Shown here one piece after another: positions 4,413 to 40,338 of a stretch of DNA of 64,000 nucleotides. Under the pieces are notes generated by a model. The model was not told where the DNA came from and made no database searches. It was given only the letters and a program-made list of their open reading frames with translations. Numbering within the stretch: position 1 is the stretch's first letter; each line of letters begins with the position of its first letter. Source of the stretch: Ardenticatenales bacterium (GTDB lineage Bacteria > Chloroflexota > Anaerolineae > Epilineales > Epilineaceae); the NCBI GenBank assembly GCA_020853525.1, contig JADYYS010000028.1, positions 1-64,000 on the forward strand, written 5' to 3'. Both the position numbers and the translations under genes were made by a program.

Positions 4413-4739
4413 TCATTCGCCCGGGGGCCGATAGCGAATCGACTCGGCCCGCCCAAGCGCGGCCAGCGTCTCGTCGACCGTGAGCAGGACGGTCGTCTCG
4501 ATCTTCGAGAGCGCTCCGCCTCCGCCGATCGCAATCGCCACGGCCGCCATCGAAACGTTGTCCGGAGCCTCCCAGAGGTTATAACCGTCGTACGCGCCAA
4601 ACGCGTACCAGAAGCCGTGGAGTCTGCCTCCCACCGACTCGATGTAGGCCCGCGCCGCCTCTCGCCGGTCCTCCGGATGCTTGGCCAGTCGCTCCCACGT
4701 TTCGGGGGTGTAGCTGAAGCGCGTCAGGTACATCGGCAT
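4413..4739 (-). CDS. GYD-domain protein
   Basis: 108 residues spanning one GYD domain: the N-terminus MPMYLTRFSYTPETW, the signature WYAFGAYDGYNLWEAPDN in the middle and IETTVLLTVDE near the end. GYD proteins are small ferredoxin-like-fold proteins of unknown biochemical role. The ATG is preceded by AAGGAG at good spacing; the open frame continues upstream through the repeat island, but that stretch is not protein-like. A TACAAT box about 38 bp upstream of the start is a candidate -10. It may be cotranscribed with the CapA-like gene. Confidence 0.8.
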   Translation of the reverse strand: MPMYLTRFSYTPETWERLAKHPEDRREAARAYIESVGGRLHGFWYAFGAYDGYNLWEAPDNVSMAAVAIAIGGGGALSKIETTVLLTVDETLAALGRAESIRYRPPGE

Positions 4740-4776
4740 CGCTCGGCTCCTTGGGGTCAAGGGGGCTGTCCGGCAC

Positions 4777-4782: not shown

Positions 4783-4867
4783 GTCGCGGTGCGCCGGCTC
4801 CGGCGGCGACCAGCCGTCTTCAGCCGTCCATCCCGCAGCGCCGATGGAAAGCTGAGCGAATTGGGCT

Positions 4868-5041
4868 CAACGGCTGAAGCCGTCGCTGAGGGTGGACCTG
4901 TCGGTCCACCACGCGCCTGCCTTCGCAGGCGCCAAAGCGGTGCGCCCCCCGCTACCGACAAACACGGCACCTGGGTCTGGCGCCTGCGAAGGCAGGCGCG
5001 CGGCAGCCGGAGGCTGCCCTCAGCGACGGCTTCAGCCGTTG
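4868..5041. repeat. interspersed inverted-repeat element, full copy
   Basis: A 174-bp element with perfect 24-bp terminal inverted repeats (4868-4891 and 5018-5041, outer end CAACGGCTGAAGCCGTCG) and nested inner arms (4913-4933 and 4979-5001, GCGCCTGCCTTCGCAGGCG type). The right half recurs at about 12.1 kb and 29.7 kb in the same orientation. It encodes no protein. It resembles a BIME/REP-like or MITE-like element; which of these is not decidable from one window. Confidence 0.75.
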
Positions 5042-5048
5042 ATTCGTC

Positions 5049-5147
5049 TCCTTGAAGAAATGCGCCCGCGTTCTTGAAGAAACGCCGGCCCGTTCTTCAA
5101 GAACGCGCTCGCACTTCTTCAAGAAACCGCGGCCGAGTCCTAAAGAA
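5049..5147. promoter_or_regulatory. array of five near-palindromic 11-mers at exact 22-bp spacing
   Basis: Sites begin at 5049 (TCCTTGAAGAA), 5071 (TTCTTGAAGAA), 5093 (TTCTTCAAGAA), 5115 (TTCTTCAAGAA) and 5137 (GTCCTAAAGAA). The core is palindromic except for the central base, and the 11-bp spacers are GC-rich and unrelated. Spacing of 22 bp is two helical turns, so all sites face the same side. The array starts 8 bp beyond the inverted-repeat element and lies about 230 bp upstream of the HU-like gene. A cooperative operator is the simplest reading; the regulator is unknown. Confidence 0.6.
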
Positions 5148-5376: not shown

Positions 5377-5814
5377 ATGGCAACCTGGATCGAGGCGATC
5401 AGCGCCTACCGCCCGCGGGTCTCCACCCTGCCCACGCTCGACCTCGACGCCCTGGCCGAACGCCTCGCCTCCGGCACGCTGCTCACGCCGCGCGTCGCCC
5501 GGATGGTCCTGGAGGAGCTCGGCCACGAGATCGGACAGCAGCTCCGCACGGGCCACCGCGTGAAGCTGCCGGGCATCGGCACCTTCGGCCCGCGGATCCG
5601 GCTGGACGGGACGATGCGCGCCACGCTGCGCCTCGCCCCGGAGCTGCGCGACGCGGTGACGGACGTCGGCACCTTCCTCGGCGGCATCACCGGCCGGGAG
5701 AGCGTCGGGCTCGACCTCATCGCCCTCAAGGAGCGGTGGGACGCCGAGCACCCGGACGACCCGCTCGAGCTGCCGCCGAACTACCGGAGCCGGGCCAAGC
5801 GCACGGCCGCGTGA
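5377..5814 (+). CDS. HU/IHF-like DNA-binding protein
   Basis: 145 residues. Residues about 25-80 have the HU/IHF layout: helices (LAERLASGTLLTPRVARMVL), then LRTGHRVKLPGIGTFGPRIR, matching the beta-arm entry of HU-like proteins. The arm and C-terminal half are divergent, so this is an HU-related variant rather than a canonical 90-residue HU. AGGAG at 5363-5367 is 9 nt before the second ATG (nt 5377) but only 3 nt before the first (5371), so the second is chosen. The frame is open upstream through the palindrome array, but that sequence is repeat-derived. It would bind DNA non-specifically or in an architectural role. Confidence 0.75.
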   Translation: MATWIEAISAYRPRVSTLPTLDLDALAERLASGTLLTPRVARMVLEELGHEIGQQLRTGHRVKLPGIGTFGPRIRLDGTMRATLRLAPELRDAVTDVGTFLGGITGRESVGLDLIALKERWDAEHPDDPLELPPNYRSRAKRTAA

Positions 5815-12078: not shown

Positions 12079-12144
12079 GCGCCCGCGAAGGCAGGCGCGC
12101 TGTGATGCCCAGCGCCGCCCGCAACGACGGCTTCAGCCGTTGAT
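12079..12144. repeat. interspersed inverted-repeat element, partial copy overlapping tmk
   Basis: Carries the inner arm (a GCGCCCGCGAAGGCAGGCGC variant, 12079-12100) and the outer right arm (ACGACGGCTTCAGCCGTTG, 12124-12142) of the element at 4868-5041. The outer arm includes the tmk stop codon (12133-12135 on the minus strand). The left half of the element is missing. Confidence 0.65.
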
Positions 12145-39530: not shown

Positions 39531-40235
39531 TCAGGCGTCCCCGCTGCAAGCGACGACGTGACGCTCGTAGGCGCGCAGGGCGAGCCAGCCGAGGGCGATC
39601 GACGACAGGGCGCCGTAGCCGATGGCGTAGCCGATCCGCCACGCCGGCTCCGGCTGGAGGGCCGCTTCCAGGAGGACGAGCGGCGCGCGGACGGGGTGCA
39701 GCAGCCAGGCGGGGTGGGGCCAGATCGCCAGTGCGTCGAACACGGGCAGCCCGAGCACGGCGGTGTACAGGATCGACGGAAACAGGAAGGCATTGATCGA
39801 GCTGTAGCGGGCGACGGCGACGAAGCCGTAGAGCGCGAAAAGCGTGGCCGCCAAGGCGACGCCGGCGGCGAAGGCAACGACATCGAAACGCGGCCCGTGG
39901 GTGGCAAGGACGATCACGCCGGCCTCGAGCCCGCTGAGAAGCGCGAGCGAGGCGACCTTGGCAGCGACGTACTCCCACGGCCGGAGCGGCGAGACGGCCA
40001 GCGCCTGCAGTGAGCCCTCGGCCTTTTCCAGGAGGACGAGCCCACCGATGAAGTAGAACGTGTTCACCTGCATGTTCAGCAGGACGAGCGACGGCAGGAC
40101 GGCGGTGAGCGTCTCCGCGGGCAGCAGGCGCAGGAGCGGGATCATGCACAGCGCCACGAACGCGGCCGCGGCGTAGAACCCGCCCCGGAACTGCAGCCGG
40201 ACGTCGTGGCGGATGGCGGCGAGGAGACGCCTCAT
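39531..40235 (-). CDS. ABC-2-type transporter permease (first permease of the exporter)
   Basis: 234 residues, six hydrophobic segments. The loop LVLLEKAEGSLQALAVSPLR is the conserved ABC-2 permease region and parallels DARDDGTLAALQVTPLT in the second permease, so the two are distant paralogues that probably pair in the membrane. Its start codon lies inside the first unit of a 14-bp tandem repeat that separates it from the ATPase gene, so its translation start is framed by repeated ATGAGG sequences. Confidence 0.8.
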   Translation of the reverse strand: MRRLLAAIRHDVRLQFRGGFYAAAAFVALCMIPLLRLLPAETLTAVLPSLVLLNMQVNTFYFIGGLVLLEKAEGSLQALAVSPLRPWEYVAAKVASLALLSGLEAGVIVLATHGPRFDVVAFAAGVALAATLFALYGFVAVARYSSINAFLFPSILYTAVLGLPVFDALAIWPHPAWLLHPVRAPLVLLEAALQPEPAWRIGYAIGYGALSSIALGWLALRAYERHVVACSGDA

Positions 40236-40338
40236 GGCAGTCGTCTCATGGCAGTCGTCTCATGGCAGTTGCCTCATGGCTGTCGCCTCATGGCAGTTGC
40301 CTCATGGCTGTCGCCTCATGGCAGCGGCCTCATCCGAG
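40231..40338. repeat. 14-bp tandem repeat, eight units, between exporter ATPase and permease
   Basis: Units begin at 40231, 40245, 40259, 40273, 40287, 40301, 40315 and 40329, consensus CTCATGGCAGTCGT (minus strand ATGAGRCRRCTGCC). The unit at 40231 contains the permease start codon and the one at 40329 contains the ATPase stop, so the array fills the 94-bp gap exactly. Each minus-strand unit carries ATGA, a fused start and stop. Confidence 0.85.

Follow-up and report, generated by a model that had tools for sequence, protein, structure and literature searches.

The five TTCTTSAAGAA-type sites at positions 5049–5147 of the window (the whole stretch of 64,000 nucleotides analysed here) are best explained as the cognate array of the neighbouring HU-HIG family protein, an architectural module with predicted DNA binding to which we give a probability of about two in three on sequence grounds. 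The preliminary description had already raised the possibility that the array serves this HU-like protein, and genomic association strongly supports that link, since paralogues of the protein have 21–23-bp arrays with motifs of their own and plain HU genes do not. Arrays were found both near HU-like orthologues and elsewhere in the genome; their absence from both had been named beforehand as evidence against the idea.

The array in the window

Five 11-mers of TTCTTSAAGAA type were confirmed at the positions and the exact 22-bp spacing first described, three of them perfect and the two at the ends with one and three mismatches. Unit 1 (5049–5059) is TCCTTGAAGAA, with one mismatch; unit 2 (5071–5081) is TTCTTGAAGAA, a perfect match that recurs in the arrays on contigs C7, C43 and C53; units 3 (5093–5103) and 4 (5115–5125) are both TTCTTCAAGAA and perfect; unit 5 (5137–5147) is GTCCTAAAGAA, a degenerate edge unit with three mismatches. 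Throughout the 4.27-Mb genome, 14 perfect TTCTTSAAGAA sites were observed, where 0.058 were expected under a dinucleotide (order-1 Markov) model. A generic array detector (five units, ten columns, periods 14–35) was run on 404 kb of the genome and ranked the window array as the top period-22 match with a score of 105; the one other period-22 stretch scoring ≥70 in the same 404 kb was a real array with a different motif. The excess of perfect sites and the top period-22 rank rule out a chance origin of the window array.

The spacers had been described as unrelated. Their identity is indeed far below that of the cores, but they are not wholly unrelated, with values of 0.49 inside an array and 0.42 from one array to another, where shuffled sequence gives 0.34. 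Core identity in the four TTCTTSAAGAA arrays is 0.82–0.84 (0.82 between arrays), and this difference from the spacers marks the cores and their phase as the conserved part. In the window, spacer 1 is in part reverse-complementary to spacer 3 (p=0.02 for spacer complementarity in this array), so that units 1–4 form a larger inverted repeat at 5051–5123, whose 31-nt arms (5051–5081 and 5093–5123) are 90% complementary and enclose 11 nt.

A second repeat family, distinct from the array, abuts it at 4867–5042 and consists of nested, interspersed inverted repeats of AACGGCTGAAGCCGT and CGCCTGCGAAGGCAGGCG. A perfect 26-nt inverted repeat, TCAACGGCTGAAGCCGTCGCTGAGGG, encloses the inner CGCCTGCGAAGGCAGGCG inverted repeat in this region, and AACGGCTGAAGCCGT was found again at positions 12127 and 29727 of the window. 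A 14-bp tandem repeat of 7.6 copies (CGCCTCATGGCAGT) is located at 40228–40333.

The HU-HIG gene and its neighbours

The proposed cognate binding protein, 145 aa long, is encoded on the + strand at 5377–5814, with the array 230 bp upstream of the gene start. The divergent neighbour on the other side of the array (4413–4742, - strand) encodes a GYD-domain protein (PF08734, 85 bits). No sigma-70-like promoter was seen near the array. HU-HIG (PF18291; HU_rel, TIGR01201) is a known family, and the window protein is a member by its PF18291 score of 39.1 bits, against a Pfam gathering cut-off of 26.2 bits. Its TIGR01201 score (23.3 bits) is below the NCBIfam cut-off of 68.6 bits, which is exceeded by the array-linked proteins L215 (81.2) and L203 (73.7) from the order of Prevotella. 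Structure prediction without an alignment gave a mean pLDDT of 43.5, solved structures yielded distant HU/IHF matches only, and there was no match to defence-system families. The source genome contains 13 HU-HIG-related loci, and the copy number reached about 21 per genome among the genomes in this analysis. A 2017 comparative study of the HU-HIG family reportedly predicted roles in chromosome partition and in the recognition of invading elements.

Recurrence of the motif and arrays of other paralogues

The genome-wide search for TTCTTSAAGAA at 22-bp spacing, which had been proposed as a check, recovered arrays at three other loci, C7:324, C43:37360 and C53:37837. All four window-motif arrays (that of the window being on C28) are intergenic, have a 22-bp period and five to six units, and match the motif best in their centre, with degenerate edges. 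They hold 11 of the 14 perfect sites, and the remaining three (C13:25098, C20:4640 and C68:4221) are isolated sites outside arrays. Among 60 relatives, none of the same genus, the exact motif gave a single-pair, one-mismatch match as the one hit besides the source genome, and it was not found in viral contigs. The exact two-unit pattern was detected among 84,980 species in Prevotella MAGs only, one of which contains 75 phased pairs, with HU-HIG genes adjoining such arrays.

Other HU-HIG copies of the source genome, on C64, C25, C65 and C49, adjoin arrays with a period of 22 or 23 bp and different motifs. The C25 paralogue has an array of TCTCGGTTAGA (within TGTCT-N5-AGACA) 3' of its gene and more arrays on C27, C33 and C52; one random control stretch contained an array with this exact motif. 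Arrays of GAGCACNGTGAAT, the motif of the C64 paralogue, were located on C64, C8 and C46, and those of TCAACATNGA, the motif of the C49 paralogue, on C49, C56 and C33 with a 23-bp period. Reversed-pattern controls for the C25, C64 and C49 motif searches gave 0 matches. These directed searches thus identify four paralogues with three to four arrays each, one of which adjoins the paralogue's own gene. The C65 paralogue has its own array, with the motif TTCCTTGCCTGT, and the HU-HIG loci at C37 and C13 probably have arrays too. At 6 of the 13 HU-HIG loci, no array was detectable within several kb.

Two other phased stretches were noted in the course of these searches. At C19:92852–92950 (L134–L137) there are at least four phased TCTCASYGAGA units, which are near to but distinct from the C25 motif and have no HU-HIG gene assigned, and on C26 (L124, 3432–3564) there is a weaker period-22 stretch of CTTCCAGGCGGGAAG-like units.

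Periodicity around HU-HIG genes

At each locus, 15 non-triplet periods were compared in the sequence up to 600 bp from the gene, and the best one was noted. A period of 22 bp was best at 18/30 HU-HIG loci of class-level relatives (P=2.7e-14), at 5/7 loci in a further set (P=2.5e-5) and at 25/40 loci from the order of Prevotella (P=5.9e-20); these P values assume independent loci and are overstated where a paralogue was duplicated with its array, which does not affect the contrast with the controls. The period profile of 219 control genes of the source genome was flat (22 bp best in 19/219), and in the same search 22 bp was best at 0/22 loci of plain HU type. Among the 15/40 loci from the order of Prevotella that were not topped by 22 bp, some carry a 21- or 23-bp array instead.

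Arrays in other genomes

Two genomes of the same family and a finished class-level relative (G033) have the same pattern, yet with other motifs, such as GATCACGGTGATC, CCTTGCAAGG and GTCACGCCGTGAC at 22 bp and TTAAGCCRACAAA at 21 bp. Arrays of TTAAGCCRACAAA lie at 389271, 2741653, 2816867 and 3959294 in G033, the one at 389271 adjoining a HU-HIG gene. The flanks of the arrays at 2741653 (L246) and 2816867 (L247) are 96–99% identical over about 90–130 bp, which points to recent copying and indicates that arrays are sometimes duplicated together with the surrounding DNA. Each motif tested, four in the source genome and one in the finished relative, recurs as a few further arrays.

The 40 loci from the order of Prevotella were taken from five HU-HIG-rich genomes, and the motifs beside them include GTATATAC, TTTAGTACTAAA, CTCTGCAAAGAG, AAGTCGGACTT and others, mostly at 22 bp. 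The paralogues L237 and L239 (98% identical) share AGTCGGACTCTTG at 23 bp, and the near-identical L232 and L233 share TGAAAYAATTRTTTCA at 21 bp. A motif shared by near-identical paralogues is what recognition by the protein would predict; another explanation is that gene and array were duplicated together. Some paralogues that are 80–94% identical differ in motif (L060 and L066 of G002; L231 and L233), so that motif and protein do not track simply. In a clade with a C-terminal extension, the 21-bp period is constant across at least three motifs, and it looks as if the period is a property of the protein clade and the motif a fast-changing one. The differences among close paralogues from the order of G060 (45–95% identity) were not simply concentrated in the beta-arm.

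In records of gut Bacteroidales, a period-22 stretch is flanked by a DUF3987- or DnaB-type gene on one side and by a DUF4248 gene on the other, with the HU gene several hundred bp downstream of it; these arrays are weaker, with scores of 56–64. The conserved cassette in the Parabacteroides distasonis and Bacteroides finegoldii plasmid records (L258, L259, L262) runs DUF3987 or DnaB, period-22 stretch, DUF4248 (- strand), HU, smalltalk, amidase. A period-16 repeat, outside the usual range of 21–23, adjoins the HU-HIG copy of G001:C15 (L087, about 1912).

Comparison with known systems

BrickBuilt of Porphyromonas gingivalis is a minisatellite/MITE with 23-nt tandem units at 19 intergenic loci (PMC4596501). 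The 84-nt copy BrickBuilt_14 adjoins an HU-family (PF00216) gene, and no leader or tail terminal repeat is listed for it; copies may carry a leader and a tail, with terminal inverted repeats of IS5-like type, and may reach 22.8 units, and earlier reports of 22- and 23-nt repeats are mentioned as well (PMC4596501). The repeat is not connected to the HU-family gene in the available text of that paper (PMC4596501). BrickBuilt resembles arrays of the window type in its 23-nt tandem units, its intergenic and dispersed copies and the one copy beside an HU-family gene, and differs from HU-HIG arrays, which have four to six units, in its length of up to 22.8 units and its possible leader and tail. It probably represents arrays of this type, as an overlooked example, and the position of BrickBuilt_14 is an independent hint of the link to HU-HIG proteins.

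The closest analogy in organisation is REPIN-RAYT, in which a gene is flanked by a cognate palindromic repeat that is dispersed intergenically and differs by gene lineage. The arrays of the source genome are likewise palindromic repeats dispersed between genes, but the partner is an HU-fold protein and not a transposase, and the repeats form phased arrays of five to six units, few per genome. In ParB-parS and ParR-parC, too, the cognate sites of a DNA-binding protein are clustered close to its gene, with a few at other places, and the protein loads side by side on the array; these systems differ from the present case of many orthogonal paralogues per genome. Plasmid iterons share tandem repeats with a spacing of about two turns, whereas the units here are palindromic and several arrays occur per chromosome. 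Among the neighbouring genes scanned for the window array and the remote arrays of the source genome, no transposase, Rep or Par domain was detected, which includes the cognate Y1 (RAYT) transposase of REPIN repeats, the adjacent Rep initiator of a plasmid iteron origin and the ParA, ParB, ParM and ParR domains of partition systems such as ParABS.

Placement, folding and alternative explanations

Whether a gene-adjacent array is 5' or 3' of its HU-HIG gene depends on the lineage, and the two positions are about equally frequent. Nine remote arrays of the source genome have both neighbours known, and five of these lie between convergent, three between co-directional and one between divergent genes; convergent gaps are enriched (5/9 against 12/78 control gaps, P=0.006), the counts being small and the gene calls those of a simple codon-usage finder. 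The proteins encoded next to the remote arrays have unrelated housekeeping or surface functions.

Significant palindromy was detected in 17/28 arrays using a column-shuffled null, and some arrays are not palindromic. Better folding than in shuffles (z below -2) was found for 24/32 arrays, clear arrays that do not fold being G001d, G101b and G119b, and the spacers were mutually complementary in 12/18 arrays tested. The C52 array (L158, 4939–5015) is a near-perfect 76-bp inverted repeat with a 35-bp stem, and large inverted repeats of the whole array were also observed at L217 and L222. Extension of the palindrome past the defined core explains part of the spacer complementarity; the rest may reflect hairpin-templated repair or a role as a cruciform.

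The preliminary description had suggested an operator, and the arrays could be transcriptional operators at which HU-HIG would repress the gene that encodes it, together with a small regulon. The position of the window array 5' of the HU-HIG start would suit this, as would the arrays 5' of the gene in Prevotella and part of its order, but numerous other loci have their array on the 3' side of the gene, most remote arrays are at gene 3' ends with one in nine divergent, and no sigma-70-like promoter is visible near the window array. This placement and the unrelated functions of the neighbouring genes speak against a simple operator, which we regard as quite improbable, and an architectural role is likelier because the remote arrays tend to sit at the 3' ends of genes, away from promoters. 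This position, together with the folding and the spacer complementarity, could also be taken to mean that the arrays act in single-stranded form as hairpins, be it as an RNA terminator, as structured RNA or as cruciform DNA, the duplex motif being secondary. This is barely credible, as palindromic units by themselves inflate fold scores, clear arrays exist that do not fold, and hairpins would have no need of a strict 21–23-bp phase.

It is also conceivable, although unlikely, that the arrays belong among mobile repeats of the REPIN or MITE kind, either selfish or domesticated, and that HU-HIG is a partner in their spread or maintenance and not an architectural protein. The copies are dispersed, intergenic and 3'-biased, they form hairpins and array-level inverted repeats such as that of C52, two G033 arrays appear to have been copied along with flanking DNA, and BrickBuilt, with its terminal inverted repeats, is classed as a MITE (PMC4596501). 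Against mobility, the immediate neighbours examined are free of transposase domains, the source genome has only three to four arrays per motif with a size fixed at five to six units, and the flanks of its arrays are non-homologous beyond short low-complexity matches. A spacing of about 22 bp is typical of iterons, and the gut Bacteroidales arrays lie in a cassette with DUF3987 or DnaB-like helicases, as might be expected if plasmid-like or satellite elements had left the arrays behind as their iterons or centromere. We consider such an origin highly improbable, given that no Rep, ParA or ParB family is encoded by the genes adjoining the window array and its remote copies, and that iterons are direct repeats bound by Rep, whereas the cores here are mostly palindromes linked to HU-HIG.

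Proposed role and significance

The preferred reading is of arrays as cognate sites of HU-HIG proteins. The family is an expanded set of paralogues, of which many have an array within about 0.1–0.6 kb (up to about 1 kb). Each such array consists of four to six short, mostly palindromic units at 21–23 bp, or two helical turns, and its motif is specific to a single paralogue or shared by a few that are almost identical. One HU-HIG dimer is predicted to bind each unit, and the two-turn spacing would place all dimers on one face, where five to six could pack cooperatively side by side. The resulting nucleoprotein block of about 110–130 bp would be bent or stiffened and could join blocks at sister loci. 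Because such a block is possible at about four loci, most of which are at the 3' ends of genes, an architectural role, by bending, bridging or anchoring specific loci, would be the likeliest, and it would be orthogonal for each paralogue. More tentatively, and at a little short of even odds, HU-HIG proteins and their arrays may be widespread, previously unrecognised orthogonal chromosome-organising modules, in which a paralogue would bind no array but its own two-turn-phased one and would tie together the few loci that have it.

A HU-HIG gene with a private phased array is apparently a new kind of system, present in two unrelated bacterial groups, and no description of this pairing was found in the open-licence literature. 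HU is commonly seen as a nucleoid protein with little sequence specificity; one branch of its superfamily appears to use specific, paralogue-matched and helically phased arrays. HU-HIG proteins thereby gain a concrete candidate DNA target and may be a source of orthogonal protein-DNA pairs, and, as Parabacteroides distasonis and Bacteroides finegoldii records have arrays close to HU-HIG genes, study in cultured bacteria seems feasible. The scattered 22–23-nt intergenic repeats of Bacteroidota would become parts of one system. If true, orthogonal modules of this kind would explain both the lineage-specific expansion of HU-HIG and orphan 22–23-nt intergenic repeats such as BrickBuilt.
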